Origin: a virus
Virus record (IMG/VR): IMGVR_UViG_3300035665_000231
Coordinates: 1 to 24,409 of that record
Length of the DNA stretch: 24,409 bases
Direction: 5' to 3' (one strand)
Shown here: piece after piece, positions 7,827-24,409 of the stretch
Layout of the letters: the number at the start of each line of letters is the position of its first letter
Position numbering within the stretch: the first letter of the stretch is position 1
Program-made: the position numbers and the translations under genes
Notes under the pieces: generated by a model
Told to the model about the DNA's origin: nothing
Databases searched by the model: none
Seen by the model: only the letters and a program-made list of their open reading frames with translations

Positions 7827-8843
7827 TTACTTCAATTTATTTTTTATTATTCTTTTCAAACTTTCTTCTACAAGTGGTCTCAATAAATTTGAAAGTTTTT
7901 CTTGTAGTCTTTGTTTTTTAACTTTCTTACCATAAGATTCTTGCAATCTTTTTTGATTCAATTTGTTGTACTCTTTAAGTTTCTTAACAACAGATTCTCT
8001 TAATGGTTTTTGACCACGACGCATACGATAGTATGATTCCATTTTGTCTTTAACATCAGGACTATATGGTGCTTTCAAATCAATTTCACCGGCAGCTATT
8101 GCCTTAGCAACATCATCTACTTCTTTGCCATTTATTACAGGCATTTCAATACGAGCAGGAGCACCAGGCATTATTTCTTTTGGTAGTTTATCCGCATTGG
8201 CCATAACTGATTGCTTACCCTTTTCAAAATCACCACCACCTAATGTTTCCATTGCCTTTGTTACATCTTCTGGCGCGGTTTTGTTTCCTTTATCATCTGT
8301 ATATCCTTTTTCTTTCCACTCATCAATCAATTTTTCAAAAACACCGCCTTTGAAATCTGCAATATTTCCCTTACCAGGATTTCCACCACGACCAAATTTA
8401 CCAACGGTTACAACATTCAATGCACTTACAAGTGCCTTTCCAGGAAGTTCTATCTGTGTTGCAGTAATACTTGCACCTGGATCACATAAATATGTTGCAG
8501 CCCATCTATGATGGCCGTCCATAATATAGTTATCAGCAGAAATTATAGATTCCAAATCTCCACCAGGACCACCACTAAATGGACCAACTTTGTTAATCAT
8601 ACCGATTGCCATTCCTAATGCCTTTTCAGGTATAATTTCTGTTTGTGCAGCTTTCAAAGCACTTGCAGGAACAGATACTTTTTTTCCAGCAGCAACATCA
8701 TCTTTCGTATCACCATCTTTTGTTCCACCTCCAATTGCTGCTTTTGCCGCATCTTTTGGAACTTTACTCAATCCTAAAACATCAGTTGTCCCAAGAATTT
8801 CATCGTCTTCAAACAGTCTTCTTTTTTTGTTAGTCTGTTTCAT
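7827..8843 (-). CDS. ParB/sulfiredoxin-fold-like protein in the head module
   Basis: 338 residues. The core is a ParB/sulfiredoxin-type motif DGHHRW at 109-114, with 'IISADNYIMDGHHRWAATYL' before a strand-helix segment up to about 150; in this fold the motif binds nucleotide or phosphate. Residues 20-60 are low-complexity Gly/Asp/Lys, 150-200 Gly-rich, and the last 60 are a very basic amphipathic helix (KKLKEYNKLNQKRLQESYGK) that could bind DNA. Residues 10-12 are LFE followed by DDE, a possible prohead-protease site. I chose ATG 8843 because TTAGGA lies seven bases upstream; an in-frame ATG 60 bases earlier lacks a ribosome site and adds a hydrophobic stretch unlike the rest. Single-gene transcript between two terminators. 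It could be a DNA-associated internal head protein; activity is unknown. Confidence 0.78.
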   Translation of the reverse strand: MKQTNKKRRLFEDDEILGTTDVLGLSKVPKDAAKAAIGGGTKDGDTKDDVAAGKKVSVPASALKAAQTEIIPEKALGMAIGMINKVGPFSGGPGGDLESIISADNYIMDGHHRWAATYLCDPGASITATQIELPGKALVSALNVVTVGKFGRGGNPGKGNIADFKGGVFEKLIDEWKEKGYTDDKGNKTAPEDVTKAMETLGGGDFEKGKQSVMANADKLPKEIMPGAPARIEMPVINGKEVDDVAKAIAAGEIDLKAPYSPDVKDKMESYYRMRRGQKPLRESVVKKLKEYNKLNQKRLQESYGKKVKKQRLQEKLSNLLRPLVEESLKRIIKNKLK

Positions 8844-8909
8844 AAATTTTCCTAATAATCTTAAAAATACAAATTTGTAAAAAAGAGTGATATGTTTGAA
8901 CACTCACAA

Positions 8910-11846: not shown

Positions 11847-11975
11847 TTATTTTTTTTCTGTTTTTTCAGTTGATTTTTTAACAGGACCGTATTGAAACAG
11901 TGATTTAATATCATTTTCAGTATACATATAACGTTTATCACGGTCTTTTGTATCTATTTTCTTCTCATCTGCCAT
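11847..11975 (-). CDS. Small charged protein upstream of scaffold gene (42 residues)
   Basis: A 42-codon ORF with ATG at 11975 and TAA at 11847-11849. It starts MADEKKIDTKDRDKRYMYTE and ends in a Lys/Glu-rich tail (KKSTEKTEKK). A strong ribosome site, GAGGAA, lies six bases upstream, and the start overlaps the last 11 bases of the ADP-ribosyltransferase gene, indicating translational coupling. There is no membrane segment. T4 has small prohead core proteins (gp67, gp68) in this part of its head cluster, so a minor core protein is possible by position only. The centre (ENDIKSLFQYGPVKKS) looks like a genuine short conserved segment, which supports it being real. Confidence 0.68.
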   Translation of the reverse strand: MADEKKIDTKDRDKRYMYTENDIKSLFQYGPVKKSTEKTEKK

Positions 11976-13227
11976 AATTTTCCTCAACTAATATCTTATA
12001 GATGTTTCGTGTTTCATTAAAACCTTGAATAGTATATCTACAATTTCTTGGCAATGTAACTTCTGTTTCGTGACAATAATCATTTGAATGACACGGAAGT
12101 GTTAGTATAGATGTTCCCGCTGGAATTAAAAATTCAAATAATGGCATTCTTTTTTTACCAGCACCTTCACATATCAATGGATTCAATGATGTAGTTACAA
12201 AAGTTTTATCAATCCATTGACCTGCATCTATAAACATTTGCAATACATTTTCATTTTGAACTGATTTGTATGAAACTATATTATACTTTAACATCTGTGG
12301 TTGATCTAAAAAAGAATAATCCAATTCATTTATCGTAAATGCATTCATTGCACTATTGTATATCTTTTCCCTTTCATCGCCTTCTTTTGGTTTTCCCAAC
12401 TTTATTTGTGTTTCAATTTCTTTTTTTGCTAAAGACGGTTTTGAAAAACGTATTATATTGTTTATTTTTTCAGAATTTGTATAATAATGATTTAAAGCAA
12501 GTATGGTTTGTTTGTCTAATTTACCTTTACTTATCAAACTATGTTTAGAAACTGCAATCATTTCTATTTTTTTATACAATTTTGAAAACTTTATCTTATC
12601 ATCACCAATGCTTAAATCATACATATCAATTATGTCTTCATAGTCATATTGTAAAAGTTGATCACGAGTCTCCGGATATAAACTATCTGTTTTTATATCT
12701 AACTGTTGAGTATCTGATTTATTTAAAAACCCTACTGTTTTTAATCCAGTTTTTTCTTCATTCGGTTCCTTTTTAGGTTCTTCTTTTTTTTCTTCACCCG
12801 TTTTATCATCTTTTGGTTTTTCTTCATCGGATGATTTTTCTGTTTCAGATGAAGTTTCCTCTGCGGGTTTTTCTTCTGTTGGTGATTCTTTTTCTGCGGG
12901 TTTTTCTTCTTCTGGCTTATCGGTAGTAGAAGTATCGGTTGTTTTTGGTTCTTCCGCAGGAGTTTCTGCCGGAGCCGTATCTGCTGCAGGTTCTTCTTCT
13001 TCTTTTTTGGGAGACTTTGATGCAGATTTTTGATGTTTTGCTGGATCAAAATTCTTTTTACTTATGTAATAAGATTTTCCACTTTCTTTGTTTACCACTA
13101 ACATTTTATCTGGATTTTCACTTGCAGGTTTATCATCTTCTTCATATAAAGAAAAAGACCTTTCCAGGTTTTCAATAACTCTCCGTGTTTCTTCACGGAT
13201 TAGTTTTTCAAGACTAGCAAAGGTCAT
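11965..13227 (-). CDS. ADP-ribosyltransferase-like protein, candidate packaged effector (Alt-like)
   Basis: 420 residues. ADP-ribosyltransferases move ADP-ribose from NAD to a target; T4 Alt does this to host RNA polymerase after being injected with the DNA. Residues 190-415 fit the R-S-E type fold: helical N part with LALNHYYTNSEKINNIIR at 243-260, an aromatic-basic pair YK at 320-321, FVTTS at 343-347 (STS-like), and HETEVTLPR at 386-394 holding the E-x-E pair E387/E389. The first motif has Lys where Arg is usual. Residues 70-160 are a disordered Glu/Pro/Lys/Thr linker. The N-terminal helix (LEKLIREETRRVIENLERSF) ends LYE at 27-29 then EDD, a plausible gp21 site. ATG 13227 has GGAG five bases upstream; a longer reading from 13347 would overlap the bS21 gene and lacks support. 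Activity is untested. Confidence 0.78.
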   Translation of the reverse strand: MTFASLEKLIREETRRVIENLERSFSLYEEDDKPASENPDKMLVVNKESGKSYYISKKNFDPAKHQKSASKSPKKEEEEPAADTAPAETPAEEPKTTDTSTTDKPEEEKPAEKESPTEEKPAEETSSETEKSSDEEKPKDDKTGEEKKEEPKKEPNEEKTGLKTVGFLNKSDTQQLDIKTDSLYPETRDQLLQYDYEDIIDMYDLSIGDDKIKFSKLYKKIEMIAVSKHSLISKGKLDKQTILALNHYYTNSEKINNIIRFSKPSLAKKEIETQIKLGKPKEGDEREKIYNSAMNAFTINELDYSFLDQPQMLKYNIVSYKSVQNENVLQMFIDAGQWIDKTFVTTSLNPLICEGAGKKRMPLFEFLIPAGTSILTLPCHSNDYCHETEVTLPRNCRYTIQGFNETRNIYKILVEENYGR

Positions 13228-13237
13228 TTTATCTCCA

Positions 13238-13465
13238 TTAAATGTTTTCAGAATCCAATTTTCTTTGTCTTCTGATAGCAGCGTTTCTTTTTTCTGATTT
13301 CTTTTTTGATGGTTTAATATATTCCATACGACTTTTATATTCTTCAAGAATACCGGCTTCTTTTACTTTACGTTTAAAAACCTTAATCATCGTATCTATA
13401 TTCATTCCACCTGCTTTAACTTTTACATGAGCAGGATTTGATGTGGTATAAACTCTGTCTGACAT
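13238..13465 (-). CDS. rpsU: Phage-encoded ribosomal protein bS21
   Basis: 75 residues. Bacterial bS21 binds the 30S platform near the anti-Shine-Dalgarno end of 16S rRNA and helps initiation. Residues 13-67 match it along the length: VKVKAGGMNIDTMIKVFKRK, VKEAGILEEYKSRMEYIKPS, then KKKSEKRNAAIRRQRK. The basic C-terminal helix is kept; residues 1-12 differ from host forms. ATG 13465 has AAAGGA upstream. It lies in the head operon, 10 bases from the DUF3008 gene and 10 bases from the ADP-ribosyltransferase gene, so it would be made late with virion proteins. Phage bS21 homologues are known from metagenomic viruses; the usual inference is that they enter host ribosomes and bias translation to phage mRNA. 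Recognition is firm, effect is inferred. Confidence 0.92.
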   Translation of the reverse strand: MSDRVYTTSNPAHVKVKAGGMNIDTMIKVFKRKVKEAGILEEYKSRMEYIKPSKKKSEKRNAAIRRQRKLDSENI

Positions 13466-20708: not shown

Positions 20709-21053
20709 TTAATCCTTTGTATACGTTGAAACCATTTTTGCTCTACCACGACCGGTAGCACCTTTTTTTCTCTTTCGTGTTACGGCACTTCTTTTTTGCT
20801 TGGATGACATAGAAGCAGCTTTTGATGCAGGAACGCATTTTGGATATGCTCTTTTGCCACCTTTTCTGGCTTTACTACCAGCAGAAGCGCCACATGGAGG
20901 ATGGCCACCACTTTTTTTCTTACGAGAAATATCAACCCATTTTTCTCTAAACCAACCGGTTAATCCACCACTGGGTTTTTTTCCTTCGATCAGAACCGAA
21001 CGAAAGTATTCTCTGATTATTTCTCTAACAATATTTTCTGTGCATTTATTCAT
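20709..21053 (-). CDS. DUF5872-like small basic protein
   Basis: 114 residues, strongly basic. After an N-terminal helix (CTENIVREIIREYFRSVLIE) the protein reads SGGLTGWFREKWVDISRKKK, then GGHPPCGASAG, YPKCVPASKAASMSSKQKRS and ends in a Lys/Arg/Gly-rich tail. The WVDI...PCG...YPKCVP pattern is that of DUF5872-type proteins found in marine phages and some bacteria; no function is assigned. The two Cys and one His could bind metal. The helix ends LIE|G, a possible prohead-protease site. I chose ATG 21053, the second of two close ATGs; no Shine-Dalgarno precedes either and a TATTTAT box ends four bases upstream. The basic composition suggests nucleic-acid binding, perhaps inside the capsid. Confidence 0.75.
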   Translation of the reverse strand: MNKCTENIVREIIREYFRSVLIEGKKPSGGLTGWFREKWVDISRKKKSGGHPPCGASAGSKARKGGKRAYPKCVPASKAASMSSKQKRSAVTRKRKKGATGRGRAKMVSTYTKD

Positions 21054-21057
21054 ACAC

Positions 21058-21064
21058 ATAAATA
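21058..21064 (-). promoter_or_regulatory. TATTTAT box abutting a start codon (possible leaderless promoter)
   Basis: The coding strand reads CTATATTTATGTGTATG, so the box ends four bases before ATG 21053 and its last bases form an alternative ATG. No ribosome site is present. The arrangement repeats that at 6343-6349. Confidence 0.38.
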
Positions 21065-21104: not shown

Positions 21105-21851
21105 TCAAGTCAATAAGTATCTAGCATATGGTATCTTAAATTTTTTCGATACTTCTAAATTTGCTCCGTGTGTTGATTCGCCATGTATCCAGTCTGATTG
21201 TGCATATTCATCTTCATTTAGTTTATATGTATTGAATATTGATTCAATTTTTTCTTGTATTTCTTCTTTTTTTTGTTTACGATATTCTGAAATATCGGTT
21301 TTGTAATTTGAATATATTTCCAACCAATTATCCCAACCAATTTTTGGTTCTTGCATAACATATGTGTATTTTGCATCAACTACTCTATCTTCCACAATTC
21401 GATCATCTATAAAAGTCAGTATGTCATCCAGAGAAAATGATCCATAAATTTCAGTTTGACGACCTGTAAAATTTATTTCATCCTCATAATTCGGTGGATG
21501 ATTGTGTACCGTTATCCCATCTTTTAGACTTAAAATAAAAGATCTAGTATCAGAGCTGATTACAACCTGTTCATTATCACCCTTTATTATTTTAAATTTA
21601 TCTTCCATTTTGTTAGTAATAAGTAAATGTTCAATAGGATTTTTTCTATATTTTTTTTCAAATTTTTTAATTATATCCATTTTTGATCCATATCCACCAA
21701 CTGGATATACACTTATTGCCTCTCGAATCAAACGTTTTTCATTTATATTTGCTTGATCATTAATATATGTTTCATCGATTACTTCATCTGAAATTAATTT
21801 TTTTGCTGCATTTTTTAAATACGAATCATTAATATTGATTGTTTCTGCCAT
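21105..21851 (-). CDS. HxHP/SxxD-motif protein, tandem paralogue 3
   Basis: 248 residues. Shares with the next two upstream genes a YPVGGYG block (49-55), a VHNHP motif (His116, His118), SLDD at 140-143, a KYTYVMQEPKIGWDNW segment at 161-176 and a C-terminal HGESTHGANLEVSKKFKIPY block at 223-242. HxH followed by SxxD is the arrangement of JAMM/MPN-type metal sites, though the spacing from HxH to Ser is longer here (an insertion of about 10 residues) and the third ligand Glu is not obvious. The N-terminal 45 residues are acidic and variable. ATG 21851 has only a weak GAG. It is the last of three same-strand genes with 21-24-base gaps, so they form one operon. Function unknown; a hydrolase or binding domain is a guess. 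Confidence 0.75.
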   Translation of the reverse strand: MAETININDSYLKNAAKKLISDEVIDETYINDQANINEKRLIREAISVYPVGGYGSKMDIIKKFEKKYRKNPIEHLLITNKMEDKFKIIKGDNEQVVISSDTRSFILSLKDGITVHNHPPNYEDEINFTGRQTEIYGSFSLDDILTFIDDRIVEDRVVDAKYTYVMQEPKIGWDNWLEIYSNYKTDISEYRKQKKEEIQEKIESIFNTYKLNEDEYAQSDWIHGESTHGANLEVSKKFKIPYARYLLT

Positions 21852-21874
21852 TTTATCTCAAACCATTTAGTAAA

Positions 21875-22612
21875 TTATCTATTATCAACATATCTTGCAT
21901 ATGGTATTCTATATTTTCGTGAAACTAAAAGATTTGCAACATGCAATGAATCTTCAAACCAAGATCTAGGATCGTTTTTACCAATTCCTTTTTCAGCCGC
22001 AAGTTTTAGTTTATTTCTATTTGCAATAAAAACTTGGTCAAAAAATTGATACAATGGGTTACCAGTAAAGTCTGGTGTTCCATTTACTAACTTATATTCA
22101 ATAGTTTCTGGATATTGATTTTTCCAAACATCCCACCCAACAACAGGTCTTTGCATTACATATGCATAATAATAATCAACCACTCTAAGTTCCAAATCTT
22201 CTTGTAATATAAAACTTGTTATATCATCAGGAGAAAAAGATCCACCATCTGCATTATTTTGTTTAGGGTGGTTATGTGTTGATATTCTATCTTCCAATCC
22301 TAAATATATTTTCGCTTCTTTTTGAGTTAATCCAGGTGTATTTGATTGATCACCTACTTTTTCTATCTTCCAAGAAACTCTTAGATTGGTATACAATGCC
22401 GTCTCTGTTAATTTGAATCTTTGTTTAATTTCAAAATCATTTATTACTCGAATATCTTTACCATATCCACCGACTGGATATACTTTTATGTCATCATCAT
22501 TTACAATATTCTGATTATTATTATCTGAAACTTGTTGTTCGTGTTCTTTATATGGTGTTGATAAAATTTCTATAAATTCTTCTTCTGGTATTTCACCATT
22601 AACATCGGCCAT
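21875..22612 (-). CDS. HxHP/SxxD-motif protein, tandem paralogue 2
   Basis: 245 residues, the most compact version of the shared domain. Order of blocks: acidic Asn/Gln-rich N-terminal 40 residues, YPVGGYGKDIRVINDFEIKQ at 45-64, STHNHPKQNN with His113 and His115, SFSPDD with Ser127 and Asp130, YYAYVMQRPVVGWDVW at 148-163, and a final SWFEDSLHVANLLVSRKYRI then PYARY. The HxH to SxxD distance (Ser 12 residues after the second His) is close to the JAMM signature. ATG 22612 has GAGAAG upstream. It lies between the other two paralogues. No signal peptide or membrane segment is present, so the product should be cytoplasmic or virion-borne. I know of no assigned function; JAMM-like hydrolase is inferred from the motif alone. 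Confidence 0.76.
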   Translation of the reverse strand: MADVNGEIPEEEFIEILSTPYKEHEQQVSDNNNQNIVNDDDIKVYPVGGYGKDIRVINDFEIKQRFKLTETALYTNLRVSWKIEKVGDQSNTPGLTQKEAKIYLGLEDRISTHNHPKQNNADGGSFSPDDITSFILQEDLELRVVDYYYAYVMQRPVVGWDVWKNQYPETIEYKLVNGTPDFTGNPLYQFFDQVFIANRNKLKLAAEKGIGKNDPRSWFEDSLHVANLLVSRKYRIPYARYVDNR

Positions 22613-22633
22613 ATTCTTCTCATATTAATACTT

Positions 22634-24079
22634 TTAAAAGTTTTTATTCAAAAGTTTATTCAACCATACTCGTATTGATCTAACATCAAAATCTACTGGT
22701 ATTTTATTTGTAAATTCTGCCTGCATAGCAACATCATATTCTTTCTTATACTTACCACGCAGTCTTAATTCTTCTACTGGAACGCGTTCATATTTATATC
22801 CATATTTTTTTGAAAGCACTCTATTTGCATAATGTATAGATTCACCCCAGTTATCATATTTTATGGAATCACTATAAATAGCATCAAGTTGCATTCGTTT
22901 TAAATCTTGAATTTGATCAAATTCAAGTTCAATTGCAATTCTTATTGCTGGGTTTATTCCAGTATCTTCTTTATTGAACGTCCCATCCGCTTTTCTTTTA
23001 CCCGCTTTACCAACTCTATACGTAGACCAACCACCTGCAGGCCTTTGTAATACATATGTATAAAATTTATTAGACACTCTCATTTCTGAAAGATTATTGT
23101 GAATAGCAAACCATATGTCCTGCGGAGAAAATCCAGATTTATTAATAACTCCATTACCTTCATCCCAAGGATGTACATGAGAAACTATAACATTTTGTCC
23201 TCTTTTCATTTTATCCCAATTAAAAGGATTCAATGGTGCAGCAGAAGCTGCAAATCCACCTTGTAAAAATAAAAGCTCATCCGGCAATCTTGGATCAATT
23301 GCAATCATATACTCTCTGTTTGATGATATATCCGCAACTCTAAATGTTGCTTCCCAATCTCTCATTAAAGGTATGTCAGTACCTCTACCATGCGGCACTG
23401 GATTTGATAAAGCTATGTCATAATTACTCAAGGATTTTCTTCTAGTTCCACCAACTATACCATACCATTTAACAGAAAGTGGAACAGGACTAGGAGCCGG
23501 TACGAGCACGGCTCTACCATTATATGTTCCATTTAATGTTAAATGAAACTCTAATAATGTGTCATAAAAAGAATCAACAAATTTTTTCCAATCTTTTATT
23601 TGCCAGACACTTTTTAAATTACCAGCAAAATCATAGTTACCAAATGCAACTGCATAGTATTCCACTCCAACAAAAGTTGGTTGTGGTGGTGGATTTGGAC
23701 TAACTTTTACACCTGGATTTTGTGATTGCGGATCAAAACTGATACACGGTGGTGAAGGAGGCATTGGTGTAAATTTTGAATTTACCCAATATTTAGTAAA
23801 ACCCTCTGCCATTATTTTATATGCACTATCAAATCTGAATCCTACACCAGGAGAATATGCGTCTTTTATATTAGCTGAAGTTTTTAATGATGTTTCAATT
23901 TTTTGTTTCAAAATATTTTTATCACCAGTCATTAAAACTGCACCAAACATGGTTTTACAACTTCCTTTACAAGCCAAATCATAAGCGTCCGCATAAGCAG
24001 ATGCAACCTGACCCACTGGTTTATTGTGAGGTTTGCCAACTTCTTTTGTTAATTTATCATAAAATATTTGATAGTTCAT
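22634..24079 (-). CDS. Two-domain protein: structural-type N terminus fused to HxHP/SxxD domain, tandem paralogue 1
   Basis: 481 residues. Residues 1-200 resemble a domain I have seen in T4-like marine phages: AYADAYDLACKGSCKTMFGA at 29-48, FTKYWVNSKFTPMPPSPP at 94-111 with a Pro-rich stretch to about 135, and 'FHLTLNGTYNG' at 178-188. Residues 205-450 are the shared domain: KWYGIVGGTRR, VSHVHPWDEG with His301 and His303, FSPQD with Ser318 and Asp321, FYTYVLQRPAGGWSTY at 339-354, and WGESIHYANRVLSKKYGYKY near the end. A charged tail follows. ATG 24079 has no clear ribosome site and lies four bases after the preceding stop, so translation may be coupled. The fusion suggests the shared domain is displayed on or packaged in the virion. 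Function is unproven. Confidence 0.76.
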   Translation of the reverse strand: MNYQIFYDKLTKEVGKPHNKPVGQVASAYADAYDLACKGSCKTMFGAVLMTGDKNILKQKIETSLKTSANIKDAYSPGVGFRFDSAYKIMAEGFTKYWVNSKFTPMPPSPPCISFDPQSQNPGVKVSPNPPPQPTFVGVEYYAVAFGNYDFAGNLKSVWQIKDWKKFVDSFYDTLLEFHLTLNGTYNGRAVLVPAPSPVPLSVKWYGIVGGTRRKSLSNYDIALSNPVPHGRGTDIPLMRDWEATFRVADISSNREYMIAIDPRLPDELLFLQGGFAASAAPLNPFNWDKMKRGQNVIVSHVHPWDEGNGVINKSGFSPQDIWFAIHNNLSEMRVSNKFYTYVLQRPAGGWSTYRVGKAGKRKADGTFNKEDTGINPAIRIAIELEFDQIQDLKRMQLDAIYSDSIKYDNWGESIHYANRVLSKKYGYKYERVPVEELRLRGKYKKEYDVAMQAEFTNKIPVDFDVRSIRVWLNKLLNKNF

Positions 24080-24083
24080 AGTA

Positions 24084-24392
24084 TTACGTTTTATCTATTG
24101 CACCTTTGCCACTCGAAGGCCATCCAAAACGGCAGCTCCAATATCTAGCTTTATGTCTTGGTCCAGGAGAATGACAACGGTGACGTGCACGGAATGATTT
24201 TCTACGAGCAGCATTACTCTTTTTAATTTTCATTGTCTTTTTACCACCTTCTCCTTTGTGCCCAAAATTTACTTTAACAATATTACCATTTGGTTTTTTA
24301 ACATAAACAGAAAACTTTTTTGGACCACCTGGAGTTCTGAAAGGTTTACCAAGAGAAACTTTTCTACCGCGATATTCAGCCTCATTCATCAT
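24084..24392 (-). CDS. Small basic 'YRGRK' protein, start possibly outside the window
   Basis: At least 102 residues, very basic. Features: YRGRKVSLGKPFRTPGGPKK near the start, SVYVKKPNGNIVKVNFGHKG, then ARRKSFRARHRCHSPGPRHK and ARYWSCRFGWPSSGKG. This pattern matches a small protein common in T4-like marine phages, without assigned function. The two Cys with nearby His residues might bind metal; the basic character suggests DNA or RNA binding. ATG 24392 and 24389 are both possible and neither has a ribosome site; the frame stays open to the right window edge, so the real start may lie beyond it. It is separated by four bases from the three-paralogue operon and may be its first gene. Confidence 0.72.
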   Translation of the reverse strand: MMNEAEYRGRKVSLGKPFRTPGGPKKFSVYVKKPNGNIVKVNFGHKGEGGKKTMKIKKSNAARRKSFRARHRCHSPGPRHKARYWSCRFGWPSSGKGAIDKT

Positions 24393-24409
24393 GTTTGGTT
24401 CATTTTCTT

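Follow-up and report, generated by a model that had tools for sequence, protein, structure and literature searches.

The JAMM fold is best known for the removal of ubiquitin-like tags. Its canonical active site follows the motif EXnHS/THX7SXXD (PMC300881). MuF proteins belong to the phage virion and are believed to carry effectors or toxins for delivery as their C-terminal domains (PMC5512222, PMC5576092, PMC11699363). Both the JAMM superfamily and MuF-borne effectors are already known; our search of the literature found no description of JAMM domains linked to MuF proteins. Here we describe three neighboring genes, A, B and C, in the virus record IMGVR_UViG_3300035665_000231, a 24,409-base stretch that was analyzed as a whole (the window) and that comes from a T4-like phage, with the major capsid protein gp23 present. 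The three products share a domain that, in sequence and predicted structure, is supported as a member of the JAMM/MPN+ superfamily. We somewhat favor the view that A, B and C are infection-stage metallopeptidase-type effectors of a RadC-related JAMM clade, kept diverse by conflict with the host.

A shared domain in three neighboring genes

Genes A (21105..21851), B (21875..22612) and C (22634..24079) are adjacent open reading frames (ORFs) on the minus strand and encode 248, 245 and 481 amino acids (aa), respectively. A and B are stand-alone JAMM-type domain proteins, with the domain of A covering approximately residues 54-247, whereas C joins a C-terminal JAMM-type domain to an N-terminal module of its own. 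Each was identified as an ORF with a profile match, and A additionally by an AlphaFold2 model and its fold. The profile was built from 61 outside relatives, excluding the window genes and their near copies, and it matched A at 6.1e-29, B at 3e-23 and C at 1.1e-20. Pairwise phmmer comparisons in a small local database gave approximately 5e-26 to 1e-25 for A with B, 1.5e-8 for B with C and approximately 1e-4 for A with C. In the alignment and the tree described below, B is the closest paralogue of A. Judged from these sequence comparisons, it is beyond doubt that the three genes share a homologous domain.

An order-preserving alignment of A, B and C contains invariant HxHP, SxxD, Y-x-Y-V-x-Q-x-P..GW and W..(E/D)S-x-H-x-A-N blocks. 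The first-pass annotation had described three tandem, same-strand genes sharing such blocks in the same order, and this description holds for all but one of them: only A and B show a clear YPVGGYG-like block, and C reads NPVPHGRG at this position. The motif stretches are HNHPPN..FSLDD in A, HNHPKQN..FSPDD in B and HVHPWDE..FSPQD in C. Scans of the three proteins against Pfam and NCBIfam returned no family above the cut-off, and PHROGs and PADLOC gave no accepted family.

A fixed-spacing DNA pattern, FSxxD..ExR..Y..P..GW, served to identify relatives and matched 72 stretches of viral contigs and 14 of bacterial genomes; many relatives are located in Bacteroidales genomes. HxHP is not part of this pattern and nevertheless lies upstream in all but a few of the matches. 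Together with further relatives, these sequences gave a family alignment of 99 members. Both histidines and the aspartate are present in all 99, and the serine is present in 97, with threonine in the other two. The proposal of a JAMM-like domain had rested on HxH and SxxD, which prove to be conserved across the family, and it had missed the glutamate that completes the JAMM signature. This residue lies before the first strand and is found in every one of the 97 rows that have a residue in that column. All three window genes and 95 of the 99 relatives have the full Glu...HxHP...SxxD set. Asparagine separates the two histidines in 97 of the 99, and the spacing from the second histidine to the serine is 6-7 in 44 and longer in the others, including the window copies. 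One family member, from an Acidobacteria metagenome-assembled genome (L097:866-2413), has HNHA in place of HNHP and retains both histidines.

In gene A, the JAMM glutamate is Glu74 (21630..21632). The predicted metal ligands His116-x-His118 (21498..21506) lie at the end of model strand 112-117, and Ser140-x-x-Asp143 (21423..21434), the predicted catalytic serine and metal-ligand aspartate, is at the start of helix 141-149. Relative to the strands and the helix, these sequence positions fit a zinc site with the two histidines and the aspartate as ligands and the glutamate in the second shell. The family alignment places the corresponding residues of B at Glu70 (22403..22405), His113-x-His115 (22268..22276) and Ser127-x-x-Asp130 (22223..22234). 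In C they are Glu256 (23312..23314; residue 43 of the trimmed alignment row plus 213), His301-x-His303 (23171..23179; also from the profile match) and Ser318-x-x-Asp321 (23117..23128). By their predicted residue set, A, B and C are catalytically complete JAMM members.

The N-terminal module of C (residues ~1-210, 23450..24079, minus strand) is missing from A and B. In a 4-member alignment it is conserved with or without the JAMM domain, and it stands alone, without JAMM, in Microcystis phage Mel-JY01. A sequence search identified no relative of the module with a solved structure. We consider it a possible targeting or virion-association module.

Predicted fold and nearest known family

AlphaFold2 run on the three window sequences alone reached a predicted local distance difference test (pLDDT) score of 34, so this input was replaced by an alignment that included the 99 relatives. 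The resulting model of A has a pLDDT of 85.3 and a predicted template modeling score of 0.82. It is arranged as a helix, two strands, a helix, a strand ending in HxH, a helix starting at SxxD, two strands and C-terminal helices. In VIA-align comparisons, the best match was Pyrococcus JAMM1 (PfJAMM1; Z 8.6, root-mean-square deviation 3.3 over 110 residues), and other matches included Citrobacter BubCD (Z 8.0), CBASS (cyclic oligonucleotide-based antiphage signaling system) Cap3 (Z 7.2), RadC (Z 7.0) and a bacterial Ubl-deubiquitinase complex. Every one of the best 50 VIA-align rows is JAMM/MPN, in keeping with the fold that the first reading of the sequence had anticipated. Foldseek against viral models matched phage 'minor capsid proteins' at 5e-10 and 1.8e-9. 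Together with the motif, these comparisons support assignment of the domain to the JAMM/MPN+ superfamily, and zinc binding is predicted.

By sequence, the nearest known profile is RadC. The family matched it in hhalign at 90% (E 1.5e-6), compared to 1.2% for a reversed control, with the glutamate, HNHP and S..D correctly paired. The Pfam RadC family (PF04002) matched one relative at 4.5e-4 and none of A, B and C, and the RadC stretch HNHPSGxPxPS is missing from all three. The family also departs from the canonical JAMM motif, with asparagine in place of the middle serine or threonine in 97 of 99 relatives and a spacing close to the canonical 7 in 44 of them. Because RadC itself has HNH, this departure rules out the canonical subclass and not the superfamily. 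On these alignments, the family is a RadC-related clade that is uncurated in Pfam and NCBIfam.

Two other candidate parents were compared. Prok-JAB (PF14464), the Pfam family to which we expect JABs of the lambda K type to belong, reached only 1.6% in hhalign, compared to 0.1% for the reversed control (14 Prok-JAB sequences), and gave no Pfam match. DUF4329 (PF14220) matched 2 of 57 relatives weakly (0.026), and hhalign, with only four DUF4329 sequences, gave 0.9%.

These comparisons bear on what the enzymes might act on. The structural neighbors Cap3, BubCD, PfJAMM1 and the Ubl-deubiquitinase complex would suit counter-defense deconjugases, with one copy for each of several ubiquitin-like conjugates of host immunity (CBASS Cap2/Cap3, Bil or Bub type), and the conjugation of CBASS cyclases is established to be reversible (PMC10097602, PMC11153139). 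However, the same neighbors are expected for any JAMM fold, the closest profile is RadC and not Prok-JAB (hhalign 90% vs 1.6%), and we noticed no ubiquitin-like partner gene in the window, though no search was aimed at one. Even with the rapid divergence and cassette replacement described below, which would suit such a role, we regard it as doubtful. The proximity to RadC instead raises the prospect of nucleic-acid-processing effectors, in which the domain would act as a nuclease or nucleotide hydrolase, as proposed in published inferences for RadC and for the Tox-JAB toxins (PMC5512222, PMC3482391). Nuclease activity is itself inferred for RadC, and the genomic partner of the family, to which we now turn, is shared with MuF proteins that carry a metallopeptidase motif. 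We hold this explanation to be just as doubtful as deconjugation.

Head-protein fusions and a variable cassette

In other phages, the domain is most often part of a longer protein. At least 120 residues precede it in 70 of the 98 distinct non-window relatives, and the domain is then C-terminal, usually in a MuF- or portal-type head protein. Among the 68 long relatives that were scanned, Phage_Mu_F (Pfam) was found in 38 and a PHROG minor head protein in 44; others match portal families. Since the domain occupies the C-terminal end of MuF or portal head proteins in most relatives, we predict that virions carry it and that it acts once a new cell is infected.

Many of these loci also contain a small Cys-rich gene of approximately 58-90 aa, with the pattern CxxC...C-A-F...IPxxIWxG...H...GD and no Pfam match. 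It directly adjoins 35 of 63 long JAMM genes; in 22 cases it was called on their strand and in 13 on the opposite strand just downstream, a position that an immunity gene might have. Loci with the small gene beside a MuF gene that carries a JAMM domain or an HExxH motif include L042, L154, L173, L105 and L160 and about 75 more (L235-L313). In the phage locus L167:2-3947, five JAMM-domain matches lie in two adjacent genes and are joined by repeated GSGNWAHTGLEDVHGGSDPGGG linkers; the second gene opens with a fused copy of the small Cys-rich domain, which is present again downstream.

A wider search of 79 small-gene loci found the JAMM domain upstream in 39 and an H[DE]xxH motif upstream in 30. 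The strict HExxH motif occurred in 29 of 67 adjacent upstream ORFs, compared to 7 of 244 other ORFs. From these motif counts, the JAMM domain and a zincin-like metallopeptidase motif seem interchangeable in this MuF slot, which leads us to favor peptidase-like chemistry. Because the small gene also accompanies HExxH-motif proteins, we dropped the idea that it is a specific JAMM antidote.

The same loci invite comparison with interbacterial polymorphic toxins and their immunity genes, such as the MuF toxins Bxa and Apk2. Of the 35 long JAMM loci with the small gene, 13 have it called on the opposite strand, the layout expected for immunity expressed in a lysogen, and many relatives come from Bacteroidales, where MuF-Bxa and its immunity proteins are established (PMC11699363). 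For the window genes this is nonetheless the least probable of the explanations we weighed, as their phage looks T4-type and lacks a detectable partner, and as a partner shared with non-JAMM domains is not a specific antidote.

In the window phage, the domain is found in a different setting. The terminase large subunit (TerL) is most similar to those of Microcystis phage Mel-JY01 (62.5%) and Flavobacterium phage immuto (54%), and terminase, portal and prohead genes are found beside the triplet. The question of whether the genes always occur in tandem, raised by the first-pass annotation, has a negative answer: of 46 surveyed records with a match outside the window clade (virus records and one phage record), 43 have a single match. 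Window-clade records have three matches, L040 and L062 one each, and L167 the five domains in two genes; the two matches in G229 are overlapping pieces of one gene. In a quick tree with SH-aLRT (Shimodaira-Hasegawa-like approximate likelihood ratio test) supports, the seven window-clade domains form one group (85), within which A pairs with B (94) and window C with its orthologue (82). This grouping bears out the suggestion of expansion by duplication and indicates that the triplet arose within this T4-like lineage.

The three copies evolve quickly. Between the window and its relative L011, TerL and the flanking gene g116 are each 91% identical, compared to 62% for A, 77-78% for B and 39-43% for C. 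For A, B and C, the ratios of nonsynonymous to synonymous substitution are 0.38, 0.15 and 0.58; those of TerL and g116 are approximately 0.075 and 0.072. A, B and C are under purifying but relaxed selection and change 2-8 times faster than the flanking TerL. Such divergence is compatible with different targets for the three copies, as had been suggested. In the sister phage L040, the flanks are kept at 95-98% (TerL 98.7% over the part covered, g116 98.3%), and the cassette between them consists of one C-like gene with 27% identity and one unrelated gene, with A and B missing. The unrelated gene (L040:1936-2805, 289 aa) has a DGGGSST motif and by eye recalls phosphodiester glycosidase (NAGPA-like) proteins.

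The location of the cassette raises the alternative that A, B and C are virion assembly or maturation enzymes, or structural proteins needed for the particle, with a role like that of the JAB domain in lambda tail protein K. They adjoin terminase, portal and prohead genes, the domain occurs mostly within minor head or portal proteins, and a phage JAB tied to tail assembly is known (PMC1779556). However, the sister phage does without A and B and has only the distant C-like gene between near-identical neighbors, no JAMM match was found in the 190,001-base record of Mel-JY01, and A, B and C diverge far faster than the adjacent head genes. A variable cassette between constant neighbors is more readily explained by conflict than by a part in core assembly, and we consider an assembly function unlikely, though it is the strongest of the alternatives to an effector.

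The edges of the cassette are set by two minus-strand genes. On one side, g116 (20709..21059) encodes a basic protein of 116 aa that is 91-100% identical in those relatives in which A, B and C differ or have been replaced; an N-terminal helix that closes with LIE|G is reminiscent of a T4-type capsid targeting sequence and prohead protease site. On the other side, g102 (24084..24409), whose 5' end is cut by the window, is 95-100% identical in relatives. Elsewhere in the window, a 460 aa ORF (11965-13347) with an acidic low-complexity middle has a C-terminal part (FVTTSLNP...) that by eye recalls ADP-ribosyltransferases; its Pfam match is to low complexity only. A 358 aa protein with a DGHHRW motif (7827-8903), located between capsid-region genes, matches PHROG 2859 (5e-8) and appears ParB-like by eye.

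A proposed effector function and comparison with known systems

Taken together, these observations suggest that tailed phages may use a RadC-related JAMM clade as an effector module. When fused to MuF or portal proteins, the module would be carried in the virion and act early in infection. The window phage instead has, beside the terminase gene, a cassette of two copies that stand alone and a third joined to a phage-specific N-terminal module. The enzymes probably act by zinc-dependent hydrolysis of an amide or isopeptide bond in a host protein or protein-tag conjugate, and the targets are probably host conflict or defense factors. We propose that the three copies evolve rapidly because their targets vary. 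Counter-defense and virion assembly, the two roles raised at the outset, are both possible, and the evidence leans to a delivered effector.

Several observations weigh against an effector of this kind. RadC, the nearest profile, is predicted to act much like a nuclease and to lack a groove that could take a ubiquitin tail (PMC5512222). A Pfam scan found no MuF domain in A, B or C, and a search of the window did not find the small Cys-rich partner gene. Foldseek of the A model against the PDB gave nothing significant at E 0.001, leaving the VIA-align rows, at middling Z, as the support for the fold. Finally, T4-type prohead protease sites, motifs that arise by chance, number one in A (IRE|A) and none in B or C. 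A narrower version, in which virion-delivered or early deconjugating metalloproteases were expanded by tandem duplication, with each copy specialized for a different ubiquitin-like conjugate of host immunity, strikes us as improbable, less so than the toxin explanation and more so than deconjugation in general. If it were true, phages would have turned a bacterial deubiquitinase fold against bacterial ubiquitin-like immunity.

These genes add to the JAMM superfamily a phage clade with intact predicted active sites, located in the slot thought to deliver MuF effectors. In T4-like phages, the domain has multiplied at a cassette site, where it evolves fast. They offer concrete candidates for asking whether phages inject deconjugating or proteolytic metalloenzymes. 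The survey also reveals a small and widely shared gene found alongside MuF proteins that bear either JAMM or HExxH metallopeptidase motifs.

Compared to the JAMM/MPN+ isopeptidases (PfJAMM1, AfJAMM, Rpn11, AMSH and CBASS Cap3), the domain shares the fold and the set of catalytic residues, but the middle residue is asparagine rather than serine or threonine, and in the window copies the loop from HxHP to SxxD is longer. The Tox-JAB-1 and Tox-JAB-2 (DUF4329) domains are likewise JAB-superfamily modules with Glu, HxH, Ser and Asp, here in toxins, but they are listed with RHS and secretion systems and not with MuF (PMC3482391). Lambda tail protein K offers a precedent for a JAB-superfamily domain within phage structural gene clusters (PMC1779556). 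In K, however, the JAB is joined to NlpC/P60 and adjoins the Ub-like protein I among tail genes, whereas the present clade lies on the head and terminase side and has little similarity to Prok-JAB. Most relatives resemble the MuF polymorphic toxins of temperate phages (PMC5576092, PMC11699363) in being C-terminal MuF modules, often beside a small conserved gene; the window phage differs in having three tandem copies in a T4-like genome, with neither a MuF fusion nor an identified partner gene. Closest of all is the RadC clade of JAB domains (PF04002), with which this family shares the order Glu...HNHP...SxxD and the use of HNH instead of HS/TH. It is set apart from RadC by its own E-x-R...Y...RP..GW and C-terminal H...Y-x-R blocks and by its place in phage head proteins.

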